Part shown: positions 47,117-60,974 of the stretch, one piece after another | How the letters are laid out: the number at the start of each line of letters is the position of its first letter | Numbering within the stretch: the stretch's first letter is position 1 | Origin: Lysinibacillus sp. 2017 | Lineage (GTDB): Bacteria > Bacillota > Bacilli > Bacillales_A > Planococcaceae | Length of the DNA stretch: 64,000 bases | Direction: 5' to 3' | Assembly (NCBI RefSeq): GCF_003073375.1 | Contig: NZ_CP029002.1 | Location: forward strand, 296,001 to 360,000 | Position numbers and translations under genes: made by a program | Notes under the pieces: model-generated | What the model saw: only the letters and a program-made list of their open reading frames with translations | What the model was told of the DNA's origin: nothing | Database searches by the model: none

Positions 47117-47203
47117 TTTGGAAATAAGAAGGTTTTTCTATCGTATTTGCAGAAAATAAGAGTTTATAATAGAAATTTATTGAAGTGAAGGGTGTTGGGA
47201 AAT

Positions 47204-47902
47204 GTGGAGAAAGTAGTAGCATCACCACAATTAGCGCTTGAAGGGCTAGAAGATGGCGCAGTTGTTTTAGTTGGCGGATTTGGGCTTTGTGGGATACCAG
47301 AAAATCTAATTCAAGCTGTAAAAGATAAAGGGGTAAAAGATTTAACCGTTGTGAGTAATAACTGCGGCGTTAATGATTTTGGGTTAGGCATCCTCCTAAA
47401 GGACAAGCAAATTTCAAAAATGGTCGCATCGTATGTTGGGGAAAATAAAACATTCGAGCAACAATTTTTAAGTGGGGAGCTGGAAGTGGAACTAACGCCA
47501 CAAGGCACACTTGCTGAACGTATTCGCGCGGGCGGAGCAGGAATTCCAGCATTTTATACGGCAACAGGTGTTGGGACGCCTATTGCGGAAGGAAAAGAAG
47601 AAAACATATTTGACGGGAAAGCATACATATTAGAACGTGCGATAACAGGCGATTTTGCGCTTGTGAAAGCATGGAAAGCCGATCGTTCAGGTAATCTTGT
47701 ATTCCGTAAAACATCGCGCAATTTCAACCCACTCGTTGCAACAGCAGGACGCATCACGATTGTGGAAGTGGAGGAGCTTGTGGAAGTTGGCCAGCTTGAT
47801 CCCGATGAAATTCATTTGCCAGGAATTTATGTGCAGCATATCGTACAGAGCCCGTCATTTGAAAAGCGCATTGAACGTCGTATCGTGAGGGAGGAAGCGT
47901 AA
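47204..47902 (+). CDS. scoA: 3-oxoacid CoA-transferase subunit A
   Basis: The alpha subunit of a family I CoA-transferase, about 232 residues. Signatures are [16 protein letters not shown] and [14 protein letters not shown]. Together with the beta subunit it moves CoA from succinyl-CoA to acetoacetate; some relatives use 3-oxoadipate. The start is uncertain: GTG 47204, giving [12 protein letters not shown], has AAGGGTG about ten bases upstream and is preferred to GTG 47192. The stop overlaps the start of scoB. Confidence 0.88.
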
Positions 47903-48534
47903 TGGAAACTCGTTTAAAAATTATTCGTCGCGCAGTACAAGAAATTGAAGATGGCATGTATGTGAATTTAGGAATCGGAATGCCAACGCTTATCGCGAAT
48001 GAAATTCCGGAAGGCTATAATGTCATGCTGCAATCTGAAAATGGCATGCTTGGTATTGGACCGTACCCGACAGAGCAAGAGGTGGATGCAGATCTAATCA
48101 ATGCAGGAAAAGAAACGGTAACTGCAAAAGCGGGTGCTGCGTTTTTTGATAGCGCGGAAAGCTTTGCTATGATCCGCGGTGGTCATATTGATGTGGCAAT
48201 TTTAGGTGGTATGGAAGTATCACAAGCTGGTGACCTCGCGAATTGGATGATTCCAGGTAAAGTTGTGAAAGGGATGGGTGGTGCGATGGATTTAGTTGTG
48301 GGCGCAAAAAAAGTCATTGTCATTATGGAGCACACCAATAAACACGGAGAATCAAAAGTGAAACGTGAATGTACGCTACCACTTACAGGACGTACGGTTG
48401 TGCATCGACTAATTACCGATTTAGCTGTGTTTGACTTTGTTGATAGTATGATGCAGCTAGTGGAACTACAAGCAGGTGTGACATTAGCAGAAGTAAAGGA
48501 AAAAACGGAAGCTGAGTTTGAAGTGAAGTTATAA
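47902..48534 (+). CDS. scoB: 3-oxoacid CoA-transferase subunit B
   Basis: The beta subunit, 210 residues, with the catalytic glutamate E46 in the [12 protein letters not shown] motif that forms the glutamyl-CoA intermediate. Other family features are [12 protein letters not shown] and [10 protein letters not shown]. The ATG overlaps the scoA stop codon (TAATG), so the subunits are translated together in equal amounts. A strong terminator follows. The distance from the ring-cleavage operon and the terminator between them argue against a dedicated role in that pathway. Confidence 0.93.
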
Positions 48535-48542
48535 TAGAGTAG

Positions 48543-48587
48543 GTCACGAAAAGCCTGGTTCAATTGCTTTTCGTGACATTTTTTTTA
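48543..48587. terminator. Bidirectional terminator between scoB and the MFS gene
   Basis: GTCACGAAAAGC (48543-48554) pairs with GCTTTTCGTGAC (48566-48577); a T run follows on the plus strand. Confidence 0.88.
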
Positions 48588-49717
48588 TTTGGTAACCATT
48601 TTAATAACGAACTACCACTAAAGCCTAACAATACGGTATTCAACCAAAAAATCGGAAAAAATCCGACAAAGCTCATACTACCAAATACAATCGGTACGGC
48701 GAATTGCACCGCTTTATTAACGGTTAATCGAATACCAAGCACTTCACCTGTATAACCAGCAGGAGAAGCATTGTATGCCATGACAATTGATAGCGGCTGG
48801 CAACAACCTAATCCAAGACCCATTACGAATGAAATTACCGCAAGAAGTGGCACGGCTTTGATAAATGGTAATACGAAAAAAGCACACCCCGCGATAAGTA
48901 AACAACCACCAATCATTTGTTCTGGTGAAAATTTTCGTTGCAGAGGCGTCATTAATAACCGGCTAATAATGAACGCTAACGCATTTACCCCAACAAGTAC
49001 CCCAATGACAGAAGTAGACAAGCCAATTGAACTTGTATAAATCGGAAAATAAAATTCAAATAACCCGACCCCAGTTAAAATGACCCCACTCGTTATAAAG
49101 ACACTGCGTAATTTTTGGTGTAGCAACAACTGTAGAAAACTTGTATTTTCAACAGTATCCTTCTCTTTTTTTGCGACGCCCTTAATCGGAATAACTAAAA
49201 ACAATAATCCTGGTAGGAGTGCAAAAATACCGAGCATTAAATATGCCACCGCAAAATCAAGCCAATCAATTACAAATCCAACTAATAATGGACCGATAAA
49301 ATTGGCAATTGAGACACTTAATGTGTAGGCACCGTAATTTTTCGTACGAGTTCCCTCGCTACTAAGTGCACCGACAAGATTTTGACTACTAACGACTGTA
49401 ATAATTTGAAATAAGCCAAATAGTAGCTGAATGGCTAACAGCACCCATAAATTTGCTACTAAAAAATAAATAGCAACTAGTGATAGGCCGCTGCCAATCA
49501 TCCCAATCGTCAGTAAGAAATTAAGTGACACACGGTCTGACAAGCGTCCCACAAACGAAGCTAAAAACATCGGGAAAAGCGAACCCGCTGCGATAATTAC
49601 CCCTAAAAAAGCAGGGCTTGCTTGTAAATGCAATCCATACAATGAAACTAAAAGTATATTTCCTTTTAAGGCAATTTGAAATAGTAAAGTCAAAAATACA
49701 ATGAATAAAAATGGCAT
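48560..49717 (-). CDS. MFS transporter
   Basis: About 385 residues with twelve membrane helices, including the MFS loop GRLSDRVSLNFLL between helices 2 and 3. It belongs to the general MFS_1 group; the substrate cannot be read from the sequence. The ATG at 49717 is preferred (GGATG precedes it weakly); an upstream TTG frame overlaps the operator. Its promoter diverges from the ring-cleavage operon and carries the same palindromic operator, so it is probably co-regulated and may import the substrate or export an intermediate. Confidence 0.87.
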   Translation of the reverse strand: MPFLFIVFLTLLFQIALKGNILLVSLYGLHLQASPAFLGVIIAAGSLFPMFLASFVGRLSDRVSLNFLLTIGMIGSGLSLVAIYFLVANLWVLLAIQLLFGLFQIITVVSSQNLVGALSSEGTRTKNYGAYTLSVSIANFIGPLLVGFVIDWLDFAVAYLMLGIFALLPGLLFLVIPIKGVAKKEKDTVENTSFLQLLLHQKLRSVFITSGVILTGVGLFEFYFPIYTSSIGLSTSVIGVLVGVNALAFIISRLLMTPLQRKFSPEQMIGGCLLIAGCAFFVLPFIKAVPLLAVISFVMGLGLGCCQPLSIVMAYNASPAGYTGEVLGIRLTVNKAVQFAVPIVFGSMSFVGFFPIFWLNTVLLGFSGSSLLKWLPNKKNVTKSN

Positions 49718-49740
49718 CTCAACACATCCGATAAACAATT

Positions 49741-49751
49741 TTGTTGAACAA
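49741..49751 (-). promoter_or_regulatory. Palindromic operator TTGTTGAACAA at the MFS promoter
   Basis: A perfect 11-base palindrome with an odd centre, placed just downstream of the -10 box of the MFS promoter. Read on the minus strand it gives TTGTTCAACAA, identical to the site at 49974. The form TTGT-N3-ACAA suits GntR/FCD regulators. Confidence 0.72.
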
Positions 49752-49755
49752 TTTC

Positions 49756-49783
49756 ATTGTAAAATACATCTATTTAAAGTCAA
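49756..49783 (-). promoter_or_regulatory. Promoter of the MFS gene
   Basis: On the minus strand TTGACT (49783-49778), 16 bases, TACAAT (49761-49756). Confidence 0.75.
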
Positions 49784-49931
49784 TAGGTTGAAAGATAAAG
49801 TGCGTAGAAATGTTGAGTCAACAGTGATTTTAGAAATTGATAAAAACTAAATAATTATTTTAAGAGCAAAATGCATACCTAAAGAAGAAATAAAATGACG
49901 CTACTTAGTTTATAATTTTCAGAAAATAGTA

Positions 49932-49961
49932 TTGACTACATAATGAATTGCAAACTATAAT
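49932..49961 (+). promoter_or_regulatory. Promoter of the ring-cleavage operon
   Basis: TTGACT (49932-49937), 18 bases, TATAAT (49956-49961). Confidence 0.82.
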
Positions 49962-49973
49962 TGAGTTACAAGA

Positions 49974-49984
49974 TTGTTCAACAA
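49974..49984 (+). promoter_or_regulatory. Palindromic operator TTGTTCAACAA at the ring-cleavage promoter
   Basis: The same palindrome as at 49741-49751, about 13 bases after the -10 box and just before the ribosome site, a position suited to repression. The likely binder is the GntR/FCD protein encoded at 56106. Confidence 0.75.
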
Positions 49985-50005
49985 TTTATCAGGAGGGGAA
50001 CATTT

Positions 50006-50977
50006 ATGTCAGAAATCATAAAAGAGCGTCATGATGATATCGTACATATCGCACATGTGGAGATCCTTACACCAGTGTTGGAGGAAAGTATTAACTTCTT
50101 CTATGAAAGTATGGGTTTGGAGCTTGTAAACCGCACAGATGAGAAGGCTTACATGCGTTGTTGGAATGATTACGAACAATATTCGATCATCTTAACGCAA
50201 TCCGAAGAACCAGGTGTTGGGCATACGGCATTTCGCGTGAAAAGTCCGCAAGCATTAGAGCGTCGTGTGAAGGCGATTGAAGAAGCAGGCGTTAAAGGAG
50301 AATGGATTGATGGTGATTTTGGTCACGGTAAGGCGTATCAATACCGCGGATTAGATGGACATTTAATGGAACTTTATTTTGAAACTGAAAAGTATGTTGC
50401 ACCAGAACATTTAAAACCAACACTTAAAAATCAGCACCAAAAGTTTTTAGGTCGTGGTGCTGCAGTGAAAAATTTAGACCATATTAACTTCCTATCTTCA
50501 GATCCAGATGCAGACGGTGACTTTGCAGAGAATGTATTAGGAATGCGTTTAACAGAGCAAATTTGCTTGGATAATGGTACGCGTGGCGCAGTTTGGTACC
50601 GTACAAACGCTAAGTCTTATGAGCTTGTTTATTCAAGAGATGCGACAGGGACTAAAGGGCGATTCCACCACTTAGCTTTGGCGGTAGAGAACTTTGAAAG
50701 CATTACGCGCGCAGCGAATTTATTCATCGATCAAAATGTCTTTATCGAATTCGCACCAAGCAAACATGCGATTAACCAAACGTACTTCTTATATGTCTAT
50801 GAGCCAGGTGGTAACCGTATTGAAATTTGTGCAGGTGGCTATTTAGTGTTAGATCCTGATTTTGAGCCAATTACTTGGACGGAGGAAGATCGTAAGCGCG
50901 GGCAAGCATGGGGGAACAAAACAATCGAAACATTCCACACTTACGGAACACCGATTGTCAAACAAACAGTGAAATAA
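50006..50977 (+). CDS. Extradiol ring-cleavage dioxygenase (type I, vicinal-oxygen-chelate fold)
   Basis: 323 residues forming two VOC domains (about 12-128 and 155-290). The iron ligands of the second domain fit H159 in LDHINF, H221 or H222 in FHHLALAV, and E273 in EPGGNRIEI, with the nearby tyrosine Y263. Such enzymes open catechol-type rings next to a hydroxyl using Fe(II) and oxygen. ATG 50006 follows AGGAGGGG; an in-frame ATG-like start at 49961 lies within the -10 box. It leads an operon with oxalomesaconate hydratase-like and aldolase genes, so the substrate is probably a carboxylated aromatic (protocatechuate-, gallate- or aminohydroxybenzoate-like). Confidence 0.88.
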   Translation: MSEIIKERHDDIVHIAHVEILTPVLEESINFFYESMGLELVNRTDEKAYMRCWNDYEQYSIILTQSEEPGVGHTAFRVKSPQALERRVKAIEEAGVKGEWIDGDFGHGKAYQYRGLDGHLMELYFETEKYVAPEHLKPTLKNQHQKFLGRGAAVKNLDHINFLSSDPDADGDFAENVLGMRLTEQICLDNGTRGAVWYRTNAKSYELVYSRDATGTKGRFHHLALAVENFESITRAANLFIDQNVFIEFAPSKHAINQTYFLYVYEPGGNRIEICAGGYLVLDPDFEPITWTEEDRKRGQAWGNKTIETFHTYGTPIVKQTVK

Positions 50978-50999
50978 CACAAAGGGAAAATGGGAGGCA

Positions 51000-51743
51000 A
51001 TGCAAATGATTGATTCAAATACAAATGTATTAGTAGTGAGTGCACACGCAGCAGACTTCGTATGGCGCGGGGGTGGGGCGATTGCGAAATACGTGAAAAA
51101 TGGGGCGAACGTGCAGCTCGTTATTTTAAGTTATGGGGCGCGCGGAGAATCCAATGATCTATGGAATGTCGAAGGGCAAACATTAGAAAACGTAAAAGCA
51201 ACGCGTAAAGAGGAACTTTTAGCCGCAGCAAAATGCTTAGGCTTAACGGAAGATAAAATCGAAATTTGGGATTATGAAGACTATCATATGGCGATTAACG
51301 ATGAGCGCATGGAACAGCTGACACGTAAAATCCGTGAAGTAAAGCCGCAAATCATTATTTCACACGGACCACGTGATGCATTCAATCCCGACCATGAAGC
51401 TGTTTCGAAATTCGTGTTTGATGCAGCAGTGTTATCGACTTCGAATGGGGTGCGTATTGAGGGGACAACGACTGCTAAGCAAGCAAAGCTGTTTGGTTTC
51501 GAACCACACCAATCAGAAATTTCAAGCTTCAATCCAGATGTCATTTTAGATATTTCAGATGTGTTTGAGCAAAAGAAAGCTGCAATGAACTGCTTCAAAG
51601 CGCAAGGACATTTAATTAGCTATTACGGCTATAAAGCAGAACTGCGCGGAAACCATGCACGTCGCTGCTCAGGTAATAACGATTATAAGCAAGCAGAAGC
51701 CTTTTCTCGCTTCTTCCCACTCGTAGGAGAGGAGTTAATCTAA
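51000..51743 (+). CDS. galB: 4-oxalomesaconate hydratase-like protein (PIG-L/LmbE fold, GalB type)
   Basis: 247 residues of the PIG-L zinc-hydrolase superfamily. The N-terminus SAHAADFVWRGGGAIA is very like Pseudomonas putida GalB (AHSADFVWR), where the usual AHPDDE motif of deacetylases is changed. The second zinc motif region is HGPRDAFNPDHEAV. Other GalB-like stretches are FEPHQSE and QGHLISYY. GalB hydrates 4-oxalomesaconate to 4-carboxy-4-hydroxy-2-oxoadipate, the substrate of the aldolase encoded next. The next gene begins at the last base of this one. The assignment rests on remembered similarity and context. Confidence 0.82.
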   Translation: MQMIDSNTNVLVVSAHAADFVWRGGGAIAKYVKNGANVQLVILSYGARGESNDLWNVEGQTLENVKATRKEELLAAAKCLGLTEDKIEIWDYEDYHMAINDERMEQLTRKIREVKPQIIISHGPRDAFNPDHEAVSKFVFDAAVLSTSNGVRIEGTTTAKQAKLFGFEPHQSEISSFNPDVILDISDVFEQKKAAMNCFKAQGHLISYYGYKAELRGNHARRCSGNNDYKQAEAFSRFFPLVGEELI

Positions 51744-52468
51744 TGCAAAAATACGTTATAAAAACGATTGATCGACCTTCAGAACAAGTGCTTGTTGATT
51801 ACAAAAAACTCGACGTTTCAACAGTTTACGAGGCACAAGGCAAGCAAGGTATTTTAAGTCCAAAACTAAAGCCGATTATATCTGACACGATGATTGTCGG
51901 TCCTGCAGTCACAGTCATTTGCCCAGCAGGTGACAATTTAATGATTCACGCGGCAATTGAAGTCTGCAAGCCTGGTGATATTTTAGTCATCACGACAGAA
52001 GGCGAAGGACTTGCTGGAATGATTGGTGAATTAATTGTCACGGCGCTTATGAAAAAAGGTGTGCAAGGTGTCATTATGGATTCTGGTATTCGTGATGTAC
52101 GCCAAATTCGTGAGCTAGGTTTCCCGATTTGGACACGTGAAGTATTATCGCAAGGCACAAACAAAATTAAAGGTGGCTGGGTAAATGCACCCGCAATTTG
52201 TGGAGGCGTCAGCATAGCTCCAGGGGACTTAGTAATGGCTGATGATGACGGCATTGTTGTCGTGAAAAAAGAGGATTTCGAATCCACTTTAGAACTTTCT
52301 AAAGCACGCGTTGCCAAGGAAGCGGGCACAATTGAAAAAATCGAAAATGGTCAAATTAGCATTGATTTCTACAACTTGCGTCCAGTACTTGAAGCAGAAG
52401 GGGTCGTGTATTACGAAACAGAACAAGATCGTCAGCTTGCAGGAAATGCGGTGAAGCAAAATGGCTAA
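51743..52468 (+). CDS. ligK: 4-carboxy-4-hydroxy-2-oxoadipate aldolase/oxaloacetate decarboxylase-like protein
   Basis: 241 residues of the RraA-like class II aldolase fold. The motif GVIMDSGIRDVRQIRELGFPIWTRE carries the conserved arginine and metal-binding aspartate; VSTVYEAQGKQG and APGDLVMADDDGIVVV are family features. LigK/GalC/ProA enzymes split 4-carboxy-4-hydroxy-2-oxoadipate into pyruvate and oxaloacetate. The ATG overlaps the preceding stop (TAATG), and its own 3' end overlaps the RidA gene, so the operon is tightly coupled. Confidence 0.87.
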   Translation: MQKYVIKTIDRPSEQVLVDYKKLDVSTVYEAQGKQGILSPKLKPIISDTMIVGPAVTVICPAGDNLMIHAAIEVCKPGDILVITTEGEGLAGMIGELIVTALMKKGVQGVIMDSGIRDVRQIRELGFPIWTREVLSQGTNKIKGGWVNAPAICGGVSIAPGDLVMADDDGIVVVKKEDFESTLELSKARVAKEAGTIEKIENGQISIDFYNLRPVLEAEGVVYYETEQDRQLAGNAVKQNG

Positions 52469-52841
52469 ACGTGAAGTATTGCATATTAAAGGCACTAAGC
52501 ATGATAATCCGATTCCAGCAGCTGTGAAAGTTGGCAATATGGTATACACATCTGCCATTATCGGCTCAGACCCAGATACAGGGCTTGTTCCAGAAGATGT
52601 AAATGAGGAAATTCAAAATTTATTTTATTATCTTGAAGAAATTATGAAAGCAGCCGGTGGTACGACGGATAATATCGCGCATTTAAGTGTGTATATGGTC
52701 GACCGCAAGTATAAGGAAAATGTGAATATTGAATGGCTGAAAATGTTTCCAAATGAAAACGACCGTCCAGCGCGACATACGACGGAAAAAAGCTTAAAAA
52801 AAGACTTACGTGTTCAATTTGAAATGACAGCCGTGCTGTAA
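52461..52841 (+). CDS. RidA-family enamine/imine deaminase
   Basis: 126 residues of the YjgF/RidA/UK114 trimer fold: IPAAVKVGNMVYTSAIIG near the start, EEIQNLFYYLEEIMKAAGGT in the middle and RPARHTTEKSLKKDLRVQFEM, where the conserved arginine sits, at the end. RidA proteins hydrolyse reactive enamines/imines; some relatives in aromatic pathways are aminomuconate deaminases. Its start overlaps the aldolase gene by eight bases. This suggests that a ring-cleavage product with an amino group is processed here, or that it protects against a reactive intermediate. Confidence 0.87.
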   Translation: MAKREVLHIKGTKHDNPIPAAVKVGNMVYTSAIIGSDPDTGLVPEDVNEEIQNLFYYLEEIMKAAGGTTDNIAHLSVYMVDRKYKENVNIEWLKMFPNENDRPARHTTEKSLKKDLRVQFEMTAVL

Positions 52842-52856
52842 CTTTATAGGGGTTGT

Positions 52857-52880
52857 AAATCGTGGCAAGCCACCATTTAT
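52857..52880 (+). promoter_or_regulatory. Small hairpin before dctP
   Basis: AAATCGTGGC and GCCACCATTT pair around AA. There is no T run. It may stabilise or process the mRNA between the enzyme and transporter parts of the operon. Confidence 0.4.
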
Positions 52881-52925
52881 AATAAAAGTTTCAAAATTTT
52901 ATGCACATCACAAAGGGGGATTTAT

Positions 52926-53981
52926 ATGAAAAAGTGGTTACTAATGCTGGCATTGTCAATGTTAGCGGTTGTTTTAGTGGCATGTGGTGATGATGATACG
53001 AGTGATTCGAGCTCATCATCATCAGGGGTAGAATCGGATTCAGGTACAAGTGCAGGTTCAGGGGAAACAGCAAGTGAAGGTGAAACGTACAAGTTCAAGC
53101 TAGGTCACGAAGCAGCTGAATCGCATATTAAATTTGAAGTTGCTGAAAAATTTAGTGAAGAGCTTGAGAAAAATTCAGATGGCCGTATGACAGTGGATAT
53201 TTACCCAGCGAACCAGCTTGGTAAAGAAGCAGACATGGCACAGCAAGTTGAATCGGGCACATTAGACTTCGCTATTTTAAGTAATGGTACAGTTTCGAGC
53301 CTTTCAGAATCAATTAACGGCTGGTTTATGCCATTCTTATTTAATGATCTTCAGTCAGCAGCAGATGCAGCTTCAACTGAGCCAGCACAACAAATGTTAA
53401 AAGATTTAGAAGTAAAAAATATGCACGGCTACGGAGTATTCTTCGCTGGTCAACGTCATATTTTATCTAGTAAACCAATAGGAACAGTAGAAGATTTAAA
53501 GGGCTTAAAAATCCGTATTCCAGGAAGCCCAGTTTTTGAATCCTACTACAAAGCAATTGGTGCAGGACCAGCTTCTATGCCATTACCAGAAGTATATACA
53601 TCGTTATCAACTGGGGTAATTGATGCGGTGGATACAGACTTCAACGCTGCCGTTTCACAAAAATTTTATGAATCAGCAAATATTTTAACATTATCAGGTC
53701 ATATCGTTTTCCCAGAGGTAGTACTTGGGGCTAAGAAAACAATAGATAGTATGAGCGAAGAGGATCGTCAAATTGTAGCAGATACTTGGGCTTCAGTTAT
53801 TGAGTGGGGCGTAAAAGAAAGTATTGCAAGCAACGACGAATTACTTAAAGAGTTAAAATCTTTAGGTGTAAAGGTAAATGAACTGTCAAATGTAGATGAA
53901 TTCAAACAATTAAGCGCACCAGTGTACGACCAATATTCATCAAATCCAACAATTAAAGCATTTATCGATGCAAACAAATAG
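52926..53981 (+). CDS. dctP: TRAP transporter substrate-binding lipoprotein
   Basis: 351 residues. A signal peptide with the lipobox LVAC anchors the protein by C20, followed by an acidic Ser/Gly-rich linker (about 23-55) and a DctP-type domain (about 58-345). The region MHGYGVFFAGQRHILSSKPI and the motif LKGLKIRIPGSPVFESYYKAIGA contain the conserved arginine that normally binds a carboxylate of the ligand. It delivers an organic acid to the DctQM permease encoded next. AAAGGGGG lies before the ATG. Confidence 0.93.
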   Translation: MKKWLLMLALSMLAVVLVACGDDDTSDSSSSSSGVESDSGTSAGSGETASEGETYKFKLGHEAAESHIKFEVAEKFSEELEKNSDGRMTVDIYPANQLGKEADMAQQVESGTLDFAILSNGTVSSLSESINGWFMPFLFNDLQSAADAASTEPAQQMLKDLEVKNMHGYGVFFAGQRHILSSKPIGTVEDLKGLKIRIPGSPVFESYYKAIGAGPASMPLPEVYTSLSTGVIDAVDTDFNAAVSQKFYESANILTLSGHIVFPEVVLGAKKTIDSMSEEDRQIVADTWASVIEWGVKESIASNDELLKELKSLGVKVNELSNVDEFKQLSAPVYDQYSSNPTIKAFIDANK

Positions 53982-54031
53982 TTAATTAAACAAGGCTGTC
54001 CATTAAGCCCTGTTTGAAAGTGATGGAAGAG

Positions 54032-54074
54032 GGCGGTAGGAAGTGCTAAATTCCTGCTGCCCTTTCATTTTTAG
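54032..54074 (+). terminator. Terminator-like hairpin between dctP and dctQ
   Basis: AGGGCGGTAGGAA (54032-54044) pairs with TTCCTGCTGCCCT (54053-54065), followed by TTCATTTTT. A partial stop here would give more binding protein than permease. Confidence 0.7.
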
Positions 54075-54122
54075 ATTGGTCTTAAGTGGATAGCATCATA
54101 GATAAGAAAAGGGGGGAGAAAC

Positions 54123-54644
54123 ATGAAAATTGTTTCAGCCATCAGCGATTCGCTGTACAAATTCGAAAAATTATTAGCAGTTATATTAATGACAACAATG
54201 CTTTGTAGTATTGCGTTAGGTGTATTTTTTAGATATATCTTTGGTAACCCACTTACATGGTCAGATGAGCTTGCCGTATATATGTTAATTTGGCTGACGT
54301 TTGTTGGGGGAAGTATGAGCGTCAAAACTTTACGCGCAGCAAGCTTAGACTTATTATTCGAAAAAATGAGCTTATTATGGAAGCGGATATTTTTAGTTGT
54401 TGGCTACTTATGTGTCATGATTTTTGCGGGGGTTGTTGCGTATATGGCAATTCAATGGATATCGAATCCTTCCGTTAAAACACAAATCTCTCCAGGATTA
54501 AAAATATCCATGTTTTTACCTTATTTAGCCGTTCCATTTGGCATGATTTGCTTATTGATTCATGCGTTTCATCACTTTTTACAAGGCTTTGTTTATAACG
54601 AAGCTGAAGTGGAGACGGCCAATGAAGGAGGAGACGCATCATGA
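54123..54644 (+). CDS. dctQ: TRAP transporter small permease
   Basis: 173 residues with four membrane helices and the DctQ motif FRYIFGNPLTWSDELAVYMLIWLTFVGG. It forms the membrane complex with DctM. The ATG follows GGGGGGAG. Its end overlaps dctM by four bases (ATGA). Confidence 0.92.
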   Translation: MKIVSAISDSLYKFEKLLAVILMTTMLCSIALGVFFRYIFGNPLTWSDELAVYMLIWLTFVGGSMSVKTLRAASLDLLFEKMSLLWKRIFLVVGYLCVMIFAGVVAYMAIQWISNPSVKTQISPGLKISMFLPYLAVPFGMICLLIHAFHHFLQGFVYNEAEVETANEGGDAS

Positions 54645-55918
54645 CTTGGGCTCTAGTCGCATTCTGTATTTTGTTAGTCATTAAAACTCCAATTGCACTT
54701 ATTTTAGGGATTATTAGTTTAGTCTATATTCTTTCAACGGGACAAACATTTTTACTGAATAATATTTCACAACAATTGTTTTCAGGCGTACAAAGTTTTA
54801 GTTTACTAGCAATTCCGCTCTTCATGCTTGCTGGTGAACTTATGAACGCATCAGGAATTACGGTGCGATTAATTGATTTTGCGAAAAAAGCTGTAGGCCA
54901 TTTTAAAGGTGGGCTAGCCTATGTAAACGTTATTGCGAACATGTTTTTAGCATCGATCATCGGCTCTGCGACTGCGCAAACAGCGATGATGAGTAAAATT
55001 ATGGTGCCAGAAATGGAGAAGGCCGGCTATAAGCGTGAATTTGCTGCTGCAACAACAGCGTCTGCCGCACTTTTAGGTCCAATTATTCCACCTTCCATGC
55101 TATTTATCATTTATGCTGTAGGTGCAAATGTTTCAGTTAATGATATGTTCATGGCAGGGATTTTCCCAGGGATTTTATTAGCACTGTCATTCGTTATTTT
55201 AATTATGATTTTGGGGATTAAAAATGATTATCCGAGCTCTCAAAAAGCTGCTTTTGAGGAAGTACTTCAATCCTTTATTCGTATCATTCCTGCATTACTG
55301 GTGCCTGCTTCAATTATTGTTGGGACACTGTCAGGTGTGTTTACAGCGACAGAATCCGCAGGGGTTGCATGTGTCATTGCGATTATTGTCGGGAAGTTTT
55401 TCTATAGAGAATTATCGTTTAAAAAATTCCCTGGATTATTAATCAATGCAACGATTGCAACAGCAGTTGTAACATTATTAATGTCGACAGCAAGTATGTT
55501 TGGTTGGATTTTAGCGTTTGAACGTATTCCACAATCAATCGTTGAAGTGATGGGGAATATTTCTTCAAATCCACTAGTGTTCTTATTATTAGTGAATCTT
55601 TTCTTACTGATTACAGGTGTTTTCCTAGACGAGCTTGCTGTTATGATTATCTTATTACCAATCTTTATGCCACTTGTTCATAGCTTTGGCATTGACCCAG
55701 TTCACTTCGGGGTTATGCTTTGCTTAAATGCCACAATTGGTTTATTAACACCTCCAGTTGGCGCAGGATTGTTTATTGCTTCCAGTGTCGGAGAAGTAAA
55801 AATGGAAAAATTAATTCGTCAGATTGTTCCATTTGTTTTCGTATCGATTATTGTGCTGTTCTTAGTAACATACATTCCATTTTTAACGACATGGTTACCA
55901 AGTGTCGTGAATAAATAA
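54641..55918 (+). CDS. dctM: TRAP transporter large permease
   Basis: 425 residues with about twelve membrane segments. DctM signatures are SGVQSFSLLAIPLFMLAGELMN, GSATAQTAMMSKIMVPEM and NATIGLLTPPVGAGLF. It is the sodium-coupled channel of the tripartite importer. The start overlaps the dctQ stop, preceded by AAGGAGGAG within dctQ. It ends the operon begun at 50006, unless transcription reads into the gntR gene. Confidence 0.94.
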   Translation: MTWALVAFCILLVIKTPIALILGIISLVYILSTGQTFLLNNISQQLFSGVQSFSLLAIPLFMLAGELMNASGITVRLIDFAKKAVGHFKGGLAYVNVIANMFLASIIGSATAQTAMMSKIMVPEMEKAGYKREFAAATTASAALLGPIIPPSMLFIIYAVGANVSVNDMFMAGIFPGILLALSFVILIMILGIKNDYPSSQKAAFEEVLQSFIRIIPALLVPASIIVGTLSGVFTATESAGVACVIAIIVGKFFYRELSFKKFPGLLINATIATAVVTLLMSTASMFGWILAFERIPQSIVEVMGNISSNPLVFLLLVNLFLLITGVFLDELAVMIILLPIFMPLVHSFGIDPVHFGVMLCLNATIGLLTPPVGAGLFIASSVGEVKMEKLIRQIVPFVFVSIIVLFLVTYIPFLTTWLPSVVNK

Positions 55919-56023
55919 TACGAATAATGAAATTTTGTTCTAATAGCTCTTTCTAATCAATATAGGGTCCTTTAGAATAAGAGATAAGTAGTTATTCTTA
56001 GTGGGTAGATGTACTTTAAAAAT

Positions 56024-56068
56024 AAAATACTTTAAATGCAATGAAAAATGAATTGCTAAAGTATTTTA
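56024..56068 (+). terminator. Probable terminator after dctM
   Basis: AAATACTTTA and TAAAGTATTT pair, with an inner GCAAT/ATTGC helix. The sequence after it is ATCG rather than a clean T run, so efficiency is uncertain. Confidence 0.55.
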
Positions 56069-56105
56069 TCGATTATAAAAGGAAGTAAAGAAATGAGGGG
56101 TCATC

Positions 56106-56747
56106 TTGAAAAGACCAGCAGAGATTGCCTACGAGTTCATGAAAGAGCGGATTTTAGATGGCGTATTCCAACCTTCTCAAAAGTTAATTGAAAATGATTT
56201 AGCACTGGAAATCGGTGTAAGCCGAAATACGGTGAAAAAAGCGTTGCTGAAATTAGAGCAAGAAAACCTAGTTGTGTTGGAGAACAATAAGGGTGCGACG
56301 ATTAAATCGTTTTCATTAGAGGAAATTAGTAATTATTTAAAAATTCGTGAGGCGCTCGAAGGACTGATCGCAGCTGATGCGGCAAAAAATATTACAGATA
56401 TGGATATTGAGCAATTGGAGAATATTCTTGGAGAGATGAAGCAACATTTACAAACACATCAATTTGATGCTTACTCGCAAGGAAATTTACGTTTCCATGA
56501 TGTCATTTATCGTGCGTCCAATAACCAGCAAGCGGTGGATATCGTACGTATTATTAAACAGCAATTAAAGCGCGTGCAATTTAAAACGATTTTAGTACCT
56601 GGACGTAATGAAAACTCATTCAAAGAGCATCATGCAATTTTAGATGCCATTCGTAGTCGTGATGTAGAACGAGCAGAAATTGAATTGAAAAATCATGTTG
56701 CCAATGTCCGTCATACGATTGTAAATCATTATAATGTGTTAATGTAA
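56106..56747 (+). CDS. GntR-family regulator with FCD domain
   Basis: 213 residues. The winged HTH (about 1-70) has PSQKLIENDLALEIGVSRNTVKKALLKLEQE. The FCD ligand-binding domain (about 75-205) carries likely metal ligands in NLRFHDVIY, KEHHAIL and LKNHVANVRH. FCD regulators generally repress catabolic operons and release DNA on binding a small carboxylate. Start is TTG 56106 after GAGGGG. Its place behind the TRAP genes, and the paired TTGTTCAACAA operators upstream of the operon, make it the probable repressor of both divergent units. Confidence 0.92.
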   Translation: MKRPAEIAYEFMKERILDGVFQPSQKLIENDLALEIGVSRNTVKKALLKLEQENLVVLENNKGATIKSFSLEEISNYLKIREALEGLIAADAAKNITDMDIEQLENILGEMKQHLQTHQFDAYSQGNLRFHDVIYRASNNQQAVDIVRIIKQQLKRVQFKTILVPGRNENSFKEHHAILDAIRSRDVERAEIELKNHVANVRHTIVNHYNVLM

Positions 56748-57324: not shown

Positions 57325-58629
57325 ATGGCGGATTGGTTAGAATTATATAATGAAATGGGCGACTACTTAGCACCAAGTATGGCAAAAGATCACCCAAATC
57401 TTCCTGTAGTAAAGGAAGAAGGCTGTTATTATTACGGCGCAGATGGGAAAACATATTTAGACTTTACATCTGGAATCGCTGTTACAAATACAGGTCACCG
57501 TCATCCGAAAATTGTTCAAAGTATTAAAGATGCGGCAGACCAATTAGTACATGGTCCATCAGGCGTTATTATGTACGAATCGATTTTAAAATTATCTGAA
57601 GAGCTTGGTGAAGTATTACCAGGTGATCTTGGCTGCTTCTTCTTTGCAAACAGTGGTACAGAAGCAATCGAAGGCTCATTAAAATTAGCGAAGTTCGTAA
57701 CAGAACGTCCATACATCATTTCATTTACTGGTTGTTTCCACGGTCGCTCAATGGGCGCACTTGGCGTAACAACTTCCAAATCGAAATACCGCAAGTTCTT
57801 ACAACCCTCACATCTTTCATACCAAATTCCGTATGCAGATGTAAAAGGTGTACCAGCGGGTGTTGACCCAGAAGCTTACGTTGTAGAGCAACTTGAAAAA
57901 GACTTCAAAAAATTATTCAAGCATCAAGTAACACCTGAAGAAGTGGCAGCTGTTATTTTAGAGCCAGTTTTAGGTGAGGGTGGTTACATCATTCCGCCAA
58001 AAGCATGGGTGAAAAAAGTACGCGAAATTTGTGACCGTCACGGCATTCTTTTAATTTTCGATGAAGTACAAACAGGCTTCGGTCGTACAGGTGAATGGTT
58101 TGCGGCGCAGTATTTTGACGTAACACCAGACATCATGGCGATTGCAAAGGGGATTGCATCAGGCTTACCACTTAGCGCAACAGTTGCTTCAAAAGAATTA
58201 ATGGAAAAATGGCCAATCGGTATGCACGGTACAACATTCGGTGGGAACCCAATCGCATGTTCAGTAGCACGCACAACTTTAGAAATTTTCCACGAAGAAA
58301 ACTTAGTTGAAAATTCTCGCGTTGTCGGTGCATATGCCCGTGAACAACTGCTTAAAATGAAAGAAAAGTACGCTATTATTAGCGACGTGCGTTCTGCAGG
58401 GTTAATGATCGGTATTGAGCTTTCAAATCCTGAAACAGGTGAAGTGGACGGCAAAGCAGTAGGGAAAGTTTTAGATTACGCACTTGAAGAAGGCGTACTA
58501 TTCTACTTATGTGGGAACGAAGGCGAAGTCATTCGTATGATTCCACCACTTACAATAACTAAAGAACAAATTGACGACGGCTTACAAATGTTAGAAAAAG
58601 CCATTCAAAGATATTTACAAGAACAATAA
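57325..58629 (+). CDS. gabT: Class III aminotransferase, GabT-like
   Basis: 434 residues of PLP fold type I. The PLP lysine is K275 in [10 protein letters not shown]; the PLP-stacking region is [15 protein letters not shown] (D246). [13 protein letters not shown] and [13 protein letters not shown] are typical of omega-aminotransferases such as 4-aminobutyrate aminotransferase. The specific amino donor (4-aminobutyrate, lysine, ornithine or a related omega-amino acid) is uncertain. It is seven bases or so before an amino-acid ABC importer gene set, suggesting that the imported compound is its substrate. Confidence 0.88.
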
Positions 58630-58641
58630 TAGGAGATGAAA

Positions 58642-59442
58642 ATGATGAAGAAAAAGTTTTTATTAGCATTATTAACGACAATGGTCATTGCTGTACTTGC
58701 AGCATGTGGCGCATCAGATGAAAAAGAAACATCAACAGGCAGTGAAGGTACAGATTCTGGAGACAAAAAAACATTAGTAGTAGGTACATCAGCTGACTAC
58801 GCACCATTCGAATACGTAGAGACTGCAACAAGCGATGAAATTATCGGTTTTGATATCGACTTAATCAAATTAGTTGGTGAAAAATTAGGCTATGACATTA
58901 AAGTACAAAACATGGATTTCAACTCACTAATCACAGCGCTACAATCGAAAAAATTTGATGTTGTCATTTCAGGTATGACACCAACAGAAGAACGTGACGA
59001 AGTAGTAGACTTCTCAATTCCTTACTATGAAACAGAGCAATACATGATTTTCGATAAAGAAAAAGGTTATAAAACTCCTGCTGATATTAAAGGCGGCGTA
59101 GTGGGTGCTCAAATTTCTTCTATCCAAGAAGATTTAGCAAAAGAGCTTGGTGAAGAACATGGCTTCAAAGTAGAAAGCCGTAACTTAATTCCTGAGTTAG
59201 TTCAAGAATTAAAAACAGGCCGTTTTGATGCAGCCGTAATCGAAAACATCGTTTCTGAAAACTATTTATCTCAAAATGCTGATTTAGCTGCTTTCCCAAT
59301 CGAAGTAGAAGACCCAGACTATAAAGCAATCGTATTCCAAGAAGGCAGTGACTTAAAAGCTGAATTCGATAAAGTCATCGAAGAGTTAACAGCTGACGGT
59401 ACTATTGAAGAATTAAAAACAAAATGGTTTGTTGTAGAATAA
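58642..59442 (+). CDS. Amino-acid ABC transporter substrate-binding lipoprotein
   Basis: About 267 residues. A signal peptide ends in LAAC, so C22 is lipid-modified. The mature protein is a family 3 solute-binding domain: LVVGTSADYAPFEYVE, IIGFDIDLIKLVGEKLG and SGMTPTEERDEVVDFS. It binds a polar amino acid outside the membrane. ATG 58642 is six bases after AGGAG; the upstream ATG 58636 touches the ribosome site. It is co-transcribed with the aminotransferase. Confidence 0.92.
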   Translation: MMKKKFLLALLTTMVIAVLAACGASDEKETSTGSEGTDSGDKKTLVVGTSADYAPFEYVETATSDEIIGFDIDLIKLVGEKLGYDIKVQNMDFNSLITALQSKKFDVVISGMTPTEERDEVVDFSIPYYETEQYMIFDKEKGYKTPADIKGGVVGAQISSIQEDLAKELGEEHGFKVESRNLIPELVQELKTGRFDAAVIENIVSENYLSQNADLAAFPIEVEDPDYKAIVFQEGSDLKAEFDKVIEELTADGTIEELKTKWFVVE

Positions 59443-59471
59443 TTTTAAGTTAAATTGGGCATGACAAAATC

Positions 59472-59505
59472 AACGTCATTCAGCTATTATGGCTGAATGA
59501 CGTTT
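59472..59505 (+). terminator. Attenuating hairpin between binding-protein and permease genes
   Basis: AACGTCATTCAGC pairs with GCTGAATGACGTT around TATTATG, with only a short T run. It probably raises the ratio of binding protein to permease. Confidence 0.65.
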
Positions 59506-59608
59506 CTAGCGTTTTAGATTAGTTCTAATTGTGAAAAGATAATAAAATGAGTAGGGTAATCAACAGGTTTCCTATATTTTAAATTCAAACAAAGAAAGGA
59601 GGGCTACG

Positions 59609-60265
59609 ATGTTCAACTTTGAAAAGGTCGTGCCCTCTATTCCTTATATTTTAGAAGGAATAGGCGTTACATTACAGATCGTTGTCTTCGCGACGATTCT
59701 CGGGTTAATTTTAGGGATACTTTTAGCATTATGTAAAATCGGAACAGTAAAGCCACTTCGTTGGTTTGCTACATTCTATACATCGATTTTCCGTGGGACA
59801 CCACTTGTCCTACAATTAATGTTGATTTACTATGCAGTACCTCAAGTATTAGACATTCAAATTGATGCGATTCCAGCAGCCATTATCGCATTCGGCTTAA
59901 ACTCAGGTGCCTACATTTCAGAAATTATTCGTGCAGGTATTAATGCAGTCGACAAAGGTCAAATGGAAGCTGCCAAAGCACTTGGTATCCCGTACGGCAA
60001 AATGATGAAAGACATTATCTTACCACAAGCAATGAAAAATATTTTACCATCGTTAATGAATGAATTTATTACATTAAATAAAGAATCGGCCATCGTGACA
60101 GTAATCGGTGCGTTAGACATTATGCGTCGTGCGTACGTTGTGGGTGGTTCAACATTCACATATTTAGAGCCGCTACTTATTGCCGGTGTAATCTACTATG
60201 TGATGACGCTAGTATTATCATTCCTTGGCAAAATGCTAGAAAAGAGGATGAAACGCAGTGATTAA
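59609..60265 (+). CDS. Amino-acid ABC transporter permease
   Basis: 218 residues and five membrane helices of the His/Glu/Gln/Arg/opine type: [17 protein letters not shown] near the middle and the cytoplasmic EAA loop [33 protein letters not shown] lies before the ATG. The stop overlaps the ATPase gene by eight bases. Confidence 0.94.
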
Positions 60266-60974
60266 AATTGATAATCTAAAAAAATCATATGGCAAAAACG
60301 AAGTACTAAAAGGGATCACAACCGAAATTAAAGAAAAAGAAGTAATTGCCATTATCGGGCCATCTGGTTCTGGTAAATCGACTTTTTTACGTTGCATTAA
60401 CCGTTTAGAGGAACCAACTGCTGGTGTGATTACAGTGGGTGGCGTCGAAATTACCGATAAAAATGTGATGAAAGTGCGCGAAAACTTAGGCATGGTATTC
60501 CAACACTTCCACCTGTTCCCGCATAAAACCGTTTTAGAAAACTTAACGTATGCACCGATTAATGTGAAGGGTGTTTCAAAAGAAGAAGCTGTGAAATTAG
60601 GGGAAGAATTACTGTCAAAAGTTGGTCTTTACGACAAACGTAACGAGTATCCGAACCGTTTATCAGGTGGGCAAAAGCAACGTGTAGCCATCGCGCGTGC
60701 GTTGGCGATGAACCCAACAGCGATCCTTTTCGATGAGCCAACAAGTGCACTGGACCCAGAAATGGTTAAAGAGGTATTAGAGGTTATGAAATCTTTAGCT
60801 GAATCAGGCATGACAATGTTAATCGTAACGCATGAAATGGGCTTCGCCAAAGAAGTAGCAGACCGTGTGTTGTTCTTAGATGGGGGCGTATTAGTGGAAG
60901 ATTCTCCACCAGAGGAATTCTTCACAGCACCTAAATCAGAACGTGCGAAAGAATTTTTAGACAAAGTTTTATAA
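60258..60974 (+). CDS. Amino-acid ABC transporter ATP-binding protein
   Basis: 238 residues. Walker [10 protein letters not shown] (34-42), Q loop FQHFHLFPH, signature [12 protein letters not shown], Walker B ILFDEP and the switch histidine in VTHEMGF are all intact; it is GlnQ-like. The start is GTG 60258, inside the permease gene (AGAGGATG upstream). It completes a three-gene importer serving the aminotransferase. Confidence 0.95.

Follow-up and report, generated by a model that had tools for sequence, protein, structure and literature searches.

A Lysinibacillus operon pairing a vicinal oxygen chelate dioxygenase with a RidA-family protein, and a candidate pathway for gallate-type acids

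The 64,000-nucleotide window analysed here (C1:296001-360000 of the one-contig 3.74 Mb genome of Lysinibacillus sp. 2017, labelled G000) carries a plus-strand operon at 50006-56747. It encodes, in order, a vicinal oxygen chelate (VOC) dioxygenase, a PIG-L protein, an RraA protein, a RidA-family protein, the TRAP importer subunits DctP, DctQ and DctM, and a GntR/FCD regulator. We propose that this operon directs the import of a gallate-type acid and its breakdown by the VOC, RidA, GalB-like and GalC-like proteins, a reading to which, taken as a whole, we give a probability slightly above one half. An earlier note, made from the sequence alone, had listed the same genes in the same order and strand, and each was found by family models.

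50006..50977, plus strand: VOC (type I) extradiol dioxygenase, 323 aa, predicted gallate dioxygenase (family models, PDB matches, clade support 96/86)
51000..51743, plus strand: GalB-like PIG-L hydratase (PDB 5cgz)
51743..52468, plus strand: GalC/LigK-like 4-carboxy-4-hydroxy-2-oxoadipate (CHA) aldolase of the RraA family (PRK09262, 3noj)
52461..52841, plus strand: RidA-family protein, putative tautomerase or isomerase of the ring-cleavage product (PF01042; signature H14, P-I-P, W92, R105-H106, Q119)
52926..53981, plus strand: TRAP substrate-binding protein DctP with a lipoprotein-like N-terminus, judged by eye (PF03480, 6.3e-67; best PDB match 4paf, 1.3e-40)
54123..54644, plus strand: TRAP small permease DctQ (PF04290, 2.1e-26)
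54641..55918, plus strand: TRAP large permease DctM (PF06808, 1.9e-113)
56106..56747, plus strand: GntR/FCD regulator, likely a repressor (PF07729, 1.8e-30; PF00392, 4.9e-14)

In the proposed pathway, DctPQM would import gallate (3,4,5-trihydroxybenzoate) or another trihydroxylated acid closely resembling it, and the dioxygenase would open the ring next to the hydroxyls to give 4-carboxy-2-hydroxymuconate, the enol form of 4-oxalomesaconate. Cleavage of gallate at this position yields that compound directly, and proton shifts are needed to bring it into the form accepted by GalB. The RidA-family protein would supply this tautomerisation or allylic isomerisation, done elsewhere by GalD/LigU or the proposed MgaD; the 2-hydroxy-enol acid can be viewed as the oxygen analogue of RidA's 2-imino and 2-enamino acids. 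GalB would then hydrate the product to CHA, which GalC would cleave to pyruvate and oxaloacetate, and the GntR/FCD protein would repress from TTGTTnAACAA sites until a pathway acid binds. Another acid giving the same cleavage product could be the substrate.

The two lower enzymes were assigned by sequence. The PIG-L protein matched 5cgz (4-oxalmesaconate hydratase, GalB) at 4.9e-44, with the next PDB match at 1.1e-9. The RraA protein passed the CHA aldolase model PRK09262 (248.8 bits, cut-off 179) and failed the LigK model TIGR02798 (203.6 bits, cut-off 304.5), and its best PDB match was 3noj (3.3e-57). Judged by these gal-pathway matches, the two proteins are predicted to be a GalB-type hydratase and a GalC/LigK-type CHA aldolase. 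The TRAP set is complete; its closest solved DctP relative, 4paf, is presumably a protein solved with 3,4-dihydroxybenzoate (protocatechuate), and we take its sisters 4pai and 4pbh to be benzoate-type complexes. Aromatic-acid uptake and ring cleavage by a type I dioxygenase converging on 4-oxalomesaconate, proposed in the earlier note, are supported, the cleavage being of the meta type and the lower end the one common to the gallate and protocatechuate 4,5 routes.

Searches of G000 with PF02900 (LigB, class III) and PF04303 (PrpF/GalD) each gave 0 matches, which extends to the whole genome the earlier note's remark that the operon contains neither a LigAB-type dioxygenase nor GalD. A DUF6282 search of G000 found none, and no relative of a DUF1932 protein from another dioxygenase locus (L114) was present in G000, G065 or G184 at E 1e-20. 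The DUF1932 and DUF6282 candidates for a 4-carboxy-2-hydroxymuconate-6-semialdehyde (CHMS) dehydrogenase and a 2-pyrone-4,6-dicarboxylate (PDC) lactonase were not found in G000, in a search that did not include LigC and LigI orthologues. In these three genomes the catabolic genes of the operon are VOC, RidA, GalB and GalC alone, which matches the number of steps for gallate; since G000 has no DUF6282, GalD, LigB or DUF1932 relative, these four would fill the gallate pathway.

The dioxygenase matched the Pfam Glyoxalase model at 1.4e-19, and the 2-His-1-Glu metal site is present with its ligands kept in two VOC modules. Its best NCBIfam model was catechol_2_3 (TIGR03211), at 306.1 bits below the cut-off of 320.2. 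The best PDB match, 9wgj, is labelled 'Catechol 1,2-dioxygenase' and aligned over the full length at 482 bits with a Lys-Ser-Tyr motif in common; it was followed by AphC-type enzymes, XylE and homoprotocatechuate 2,3-dioxygenase (HPCD). The fold listings of 50 rows each, drawn from a structure library ending April 2026, do not include 9wgj, which carries no information about it, and a literature search on this entry yielded just papers with unrelated titles. In a tree of 68 rows, 34 clade rows lay on one side of a branch supported at 96/86, and 27 rows from the window's family resembling catechol 2,3-dioxygenase (C23O) stood apart at 99/99. In the comparison with characterised VOC dioxygenases suggested in the earlier note, the enzyme scores below the catechol cut-off and falls in its own clade, and a solved relative exists.

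Residues including K203, Y205, R235, R296, Q300 and H311 (numbered from the ATG at 50006) were constant in at least 31 of the 32 clade rows counted and differed in the C23O-like rows; the pair of clade rows that diverge most, to which Streptomyces L005 belongs, was kept out of this count. Tyr205 aligns with XylE H199, being Tyr in 32/32 clade rows counted and His in 27/27 C23O-like rows; XylE H199, like HPCD H200, is the second-sphere catalytic His. The Streptomyces relative (46%) keeps this His, so the exchange is not clade-wide. R296 aligns with HPCD R292, a carboxylate-binding residue. These two positions suggest that the dioxygenase probably binds an aromatic acid and that its acid-base chemistry probably differs from that of classic type I members. 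An AlphaFold model (mean predicted local distance difference test score 76.9) was used for the fold only, since the C-terminal lid had low confidence and allowed no ligand argument; among the structure-library matches listed, its top ones were AphC/RHA1 and XylE.

These structure matches, and a TIGR03211 score just 14 bits short of the cut-off of the best equivalog, are what would be expected if the enzyme were a conventional 2,3-dioxygenase of catechol or alkylcatechols, with the neighbouring GalB and GalC serving something else. Its separate clade, the Tyr at XylE H199, the Arg at HPCD R292 and the joint presence of GalB and GalC in 24 of 31 dioxygenase loci make this very unlikely. Clade members in the plasmid records listed are annotated 'catechol 2,3-dioxygenase' or 'VOC family protein'. 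Two diverged relatives were also seen. The Streptomyces one (L005/L006) lies with two 4-oxalocrotonate decarboxylase/hydratase-type, MhpF/MhpE-like, TIM-barrel and shikimate-type genes (identified by profile or eye), possibly a separate quinate-to-meta-cleavage cluster. Genome G346 has, besides a clade enzyme, a second VOC copy (L107, 48% to the query) with no adjacent GalB or GalC.

A search of other genomes for the gene order, also suggested in the earlier note, found VOC-GalB-GalC-RidA-DctPQM-GntR in Lysinibacillus macroides (L003/L113) and in L112 (G065); because it recurs there, the order is not due to chance. Alicyclobacillus fastidiosus has VOC-GntR-GalB-GalC-RidA without TRAP genes (L004). 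Scanning the surroundings of the dioxygenase in 31 loci, of which L113 repeats L003 and L111 is the window, we found RidA in 9, DUF6282 in 14, neither in 8 and both in none. A DUF1932 relative accompanied every DUF6282 gene (14/14), and DUF1932 also occurred with RidA and no DUF6282 at L114 and L130. In nine f6 loci, VOC, GntR, DUF6282, GalB, GalC and DUF1932 adjoin a set resembling protocatechuate 2,3-cleavage, as judged with family checks of single members; the same type of set lies beside VOC and GntR alone at L115, and 10/31 loci have an adjacent class III set of this appearance. Among 26 genomes with this dioxygenase, 11 had only RidA, 12 only DUF6282, 3 both and none neither (Fisher p 4.9e-5, uncorrected for relatedness). 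The totals were 15 genomes for DUF6282, 14 for the RidA clade (E 1e-20 or better, G481 at 34% identity being dropped), 22 for the DUF1932 relative (L114 query) and 9 for PrpF; a PrpF match need not mean GalD, because the model also matches in B. subtilis. Treating RidA and DUF6282 as markers of different substrates, instead of as equivalents, is weakened by DUF1932, which accompanies both.

DUF6282 clusters with the dioxygenase, GntR, GalB and GalC at L137, L108-L110, L119, L120, L122-L124, L126-L129, L105 and L106; in the Bacillota loci it always occurs with DUF1932, and both look like pathway enzymes.

VOC matches were present in 82 plasmid records, five of which were opened. Pantoea piersonii L138 contains a VOC enzyme of the same clade with galB, galC, GalD (NF033377, 546 bits, cut-off 440), DUF1932, an aromatic-acid MFS transporter and LysR, with no class III dioxygenase among its 23 annotated features; it looks like a gal cluster with VOC in place of GalA. 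An Agrobacterium plasmid combines VOC with GalD, a CHA aldolase and two amidohydrolases. Thermus oshimai L137 has VOC, GntR, DUF6282, PIG-L, a CHA aldolase, an NAD(P)-dependent oxidoreductase and a 4-hydroxybenzoate monooxygenase (PobA). In a Roseomonas plasmid VOC occurs with a class III dioxygenase, DUF1932, a CHA aldolase and a Rieske/VanB pair, and in a Methylobacterium plasmid with DUF1932, the CHA aldolase being farther away. No RidA gene is annotated in these five stretches.

The Thermus stretch, with its PobA, dioxygenase, DUF6282, PIG-L, CHA aldolase and oxidoreductase genes, would suit protocatechuate 4,5-cleavage, in which VOC would yield CHMS and, in most relatives, DUF1932 would be the CHMS dehydrogenase and DUF6282 the PDC lactonase ahead of GalB and GalC. 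The DUF1932 relative beside each of the 14 DUF6282 genes, a weak, below-cut-off match of DUF6282 to Amidohydro_2 (8.6e-5) and the presumed protocatechuate binding of 4paf, the nearest solved relative of DctP, lend themselves to the same explanation. We nevertheless regard it as unlikely, since G000 has neither DUF6282 nor, at E 1e-20, a DUF1932 relative, DUF1932 also travels with RidA where DUF6282 is missing, and 10 of the 31 loci already have the adjacent class III protocatechuate-2,3-cleavage-like set.

The operon RidA protein matched PF01042 (6.7e-15, 55.6 bits, cut-off 27.3) and fell below the cut-off of the imine deaminase model TIGR00004 (49.2 bits against 106.25). It keeps the equivalent of Arg105 and has Ile at the equivalent of Tyr17. 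The Rid3 subfamily retains the Arg and exchanges Tyr for Ile in the portion of the Rid family paper available (PMC4433059), and by this residue pattern alone the subgroup of the operon protein probably belongs to Rid3. A tree built from 47 rows, 38 of them distinct, has a 100/100 branch with the operon-type and plasmid rows on one side (32, counting duplicates) and the remaining 15 Rid rows on the other; the PF01042 loci L181, L187, L188, L190, L194 and L196 lie outside the profile-gathered set. The subgroup carries H14, P-I/V-P, W92, R105-H106 (Q in one) and Q119, and 11/15 other rows carry P-Y-S/A, Y or C at 92, R-S and E119, the remaining four differing too. A profile of the subgroup, run against 398 Bacillota genomes at E 1e-25, matched 1/398, the window's own genome. 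RidA matches occurred in 28 plasmid records, and twelve of these were opened. Relatives at 36-46% identity lie beside amidohydrolase and RraA-type genes in Bradyrhizobium and sphingomonad plasmids, and the one Bradyrhizobium amidohydrolase tested is LigY/LigJ-type (LigY 285 bits, LigJ 211, ACMSD 88). Further relatives lie in other mixed clusters; one record was unannotated and one ended at the record edge. The sphingomonad runs (L134:5152-10742 of pNL1, L144 and L147) contain dihydrodipicolinate-synthase-like, Rieske alpha/beta, amidohydrolase, RidA and RraA-type genes; in two of these runs the RraA-type gene is annotated 'diguanylate cyclase'.

RidA of the same subgroup also occurs where the ring is probably opened by another enzyme family. 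At L162 in genome G610, the genes that come after RidA encode a class III-like dioxygenase, whose best model score of 88 bits falls short of the 290-bit cut-off, and then an alpha/beta hydrolase, GalB, GalC, an MFS transporter, both Rieske subunits (alpha and beta) and FdhA. The same type of run is spread over L158 and L118 in G386 and is then followed by VOC, and at L163 (G594) RidA lies with GalB, GalC and Rieske genes. RidA is the sole gene of the L162-type run without an assigned step. The three genomes gave no PrpF match; MgaD was not searched for. The published account of the syringate route of Pseudomonas sp. NGC7, in the part available, leads from formaldehyde-releasing demethylation through the opening of 3-O-methylgallate by a class III enzyme and the hydrolysis of an ester to isomerisation by MgaD and GalD, with GalB and GalC acting last; the non-homologous MgaD is a proposed tautomerase (PMC12314914). 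The L162-type run is alike in gene content, with oxygenase subunits that differ from VanAB.

The earlier note had taken RidA to indicate an amino- or imino-bearing intermediate. On that explanation the substrate would be an amino-hydroxybenzoate, which VOC would convert to an enamine acid for deamination by RidA in the manner of 2-aminomuconate deaminase; the deaminase AmnE belongs to the RidA family, as stated in the part of PMC6742747 available, and the subgroup retains R105 and, in most rows, the Glu. An isochorismatase-family hydrolase near the dioxygenase cluster in three related genomes (L117 near 7235, L118 near 13036 and L120:3237-3911) makes an amide step conceivable there; the nearest models of the L120 protein, RutB and biuret amidohydrolase, scored below cut-off. 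This explanation is quite unlikely in our view, because RidA alternates with DUF6282 within one dioxygenase clade and turns up again beside GalB and GalC in clusters of the class III/Rieske/FdhA kind, which give no sign of an amine. By our own reasoning on paper, moreover, extradiol cleavage of the obvious amino analogues does not directly give 2-amino-4-carboxymuconate, and no molecule named '2-aminomuconate deaminase' was among the 38 PDB matches of the operon RidA at E 0.001. The alternation with DUF6282, the GalD genes in the Pantoea and Agrobacterium clusters, the syringate-type recurrence and the separation from the housekeeping imine deaminases lead us away from the earlier note on this point: a role as isomerase of the ring-cleavage product fits the sequence comparisons better than deamination.

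The retained catalytic Arg would also suit a pathway as proposed in which RidA is a damage-control imine hydrolase acting on oxo-acid/ammonia adducts, with isomerisation spontaneous or performed by GalB. Damage pre-emption is the general Rid role in the available part of PMC4433059, and RidA-family genes predicted in Betaproteobacteria benzoate/catechol regulons are read as damage control in that of PMC6449761. This arrangement appears improbable, given that G000 encodes three more PF01042 proteins, among which G000:C1:68660 is a strong housekeeping RidA, that the operon RidA lies across the 100/100 branch from the housekeeping rows and differs at His14, Trp92, His106 and Gln119, and that the alternation of a dedicated RidA with DUF6282 points to a step that is needed.

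Several observations weigh against the proposed pathway. 4-Oxalomesaconate may isomerise slowly unaided. On the VOC tree RidA and DUF6282 need 6 changes each, and among 5 independent pairs 3-4 were opposite and 0 the same, so that the alternation is not significant on the tree. Both genes occur in 3/26 genomes, and Roseateles L132 has them in one cluster. Of 18 RidA copies (two rows near 8e-11 being dropped), 9 lay within ~10 kb of GalB or GalC; among the 16 examined, 2 were beside VOC without GalB/GalC, 4 had neither neighbour type (G422, G594 at 1147175, the second copy of G539, and G415) and 1 was at a contig end (G305). Four RidA-type genomes (G230, G452, G525 and G305) also match PrpF somewhere. 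DUF1932, present in 22/26 genomes without an explained role, could mean a semialdehyde route in most relatives. Because R105 is kept throughout the subgroup and E121 in most rows, both being imine-hydrolysis residues, the protein may yet be a deaminase. The damage-control reading of the Betaproteobacteria regulon genes (PMC6449761, in part) counts on the same side.

Around the promoter, the following features were read from the sequence.

48560..49738, minus strand: divergent MFS transporter that may serve the pathway in export or import (PF07690, 2.5e-49; position conserved in L003/L113 and L112), with the TTGTTGAACAA site at its 5' end
49741..49751, unstranded: operator-like palindrome TTGTTGAACAA (site 1), next to the 5' end of the divergent gene, also upstream of VOC in L112 and L003
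49932..49961, plus strand: sigma-70-like promoter TTGACT-18-TATAAT, 11/12 consensus positions matching
49974..49984, unstranded: operator-like palindrome TTGTTCAACAA (site 2), directly past the -10 element, at the same place in L112 and L003
49991..49998, plus strand: ribosome-binding site AGGAGGGG of the dioxygenase, ATG at 50006
54028..54065, plus strand: terminator-like stem in the dctP/dctQ gap, weak, the region holding 6 such against 4.9 expected

The dioxygenase starts at ATG 50006 behind AGGAGGGG (323 aa) and not at TTG 49961. The region marked by the earlier note began at 49741, which is the first base of the TTGTTGAACAA palindrome; the divergent intergenic region holds a second site of this kind. 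Two TTGTTnAACAA palindromes in the window compare with 0.31 expected, and at least two occurred in 0/100 shuffles; both are conserved in L112 and L003. Within 350 bases upstream of VOC, counted from hand-set and in some cases rough start points, a strict palindrome was found in 5/15 loci checked (the window, L112, L003, L126 and L130) and was missing from 10/15. Palindromes also occur in L114 and, at L161, next to the RidA/DUF1932/GntR genes. From position and conservation, the two sites are predicted operators of the GntR/FCD regulator. As a genome-wide regulon marker the palindrome was set aside: G000 has 30 TTGTTnAACAA places against 24 for a reversed control pattern, an enrichment so slight that the motif tells little beyond position and conservation. 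The promoter scan overall gave 24 sites against 26.1 expected from shuffles, that is, no excess. The operon is flanked upstream by a CoA-transferase pair (47192-48534), assigned by eye, and downstream by an aminotransferase, identified by family model, with an amino-acid ABC transporter, again assigned by eye (57325-60974); nothing observed ties these flanking genes to ring cleavage.

The description of the system as undescribed, given in the earlier note, is fair within the open-access literature searched. In the parts available, including PMC8091115, PMC4250580 and PMC2784041, no gallate dioxygenase of the VOC family is described; in the two open-access papers that also mention 'vicinal oxygen chelate', the gallate passages assign gallate dioxygenase to the LigB superfamily or do no more than cite the KT2440 paper. 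No RidA-family 4-oxalomesaconate isomerase was found there either, including the parts available of PMC6742747 and PMC6449761. Taken together, we tentatively suggest, at rather less than even odds, that the RidA subgroup, probably within Rid3, is a carbon-acid tautomerase and no deaminase, converting ring-cleavage enols for GalB/LigJ-type hydratases, that in related clusters this step falls to the unrelated GalD (PrpF type), DUF6282 or RidA, and that the VOC enzyme is a new type of gallate dioxygenase with Tyr in place of the catalytic His. If so, a function would be assigned to a Rid subgroup for which PMC4433059 (seen in part) predicts imine hydrolysis, the in vivo substrates of Rid1-3 being stated there as unknown. 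Non-nitrogen chemistry would be added to a family known for imine hydrolysis, and the gallate/syringate lower pathway would gain a Gram-positive version. DUF6282 would be flagged as a likely isomerase or lactonase, and the VOC clade annotated 'catechol 2,3-dioxygenase' or 'VOC family protein' as something else.

Compared with the gal pathway of Pseudomonas putida KT2440, the operon has in common the GalB-like hydratase, the GalC-like aldolase and the end products; G000 lacks the class III GalA and GalD and has VOC, RidA, TRAP and GntR/FCD genes instead. The syringate pathway of Pseudomonas sp. NGC7 (VanA1B1-MgaAB-MgaC-MgaD-GalD-GalB-GalC) resembles it in the lower steps, in GntR-type control and in the proposal of a non-homologous tautomerase, and differs in its class III ring cleavage and the presence of GalD, with no mention of RidA in the part of the account available (PMC12314914). 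Relative to Rid3, the operon RidA is alike in keeping the Arg and exchanging Tyr for Ile, with an enol tautomerase proposed here and imine hydrolysis there (PMC4433059, in part). Unlike AphC, XylE and homoprotocatechuate 2,3-dioxygenase, the window enzyme has Tyr at the position of XylE H199 and belongs to a separate clade. Its nearest solved relative, 9wgj, compared by entry label and sequence alone, aligns over the full length (482 bits) and has the Lys-Ser-Tyr motif in common.

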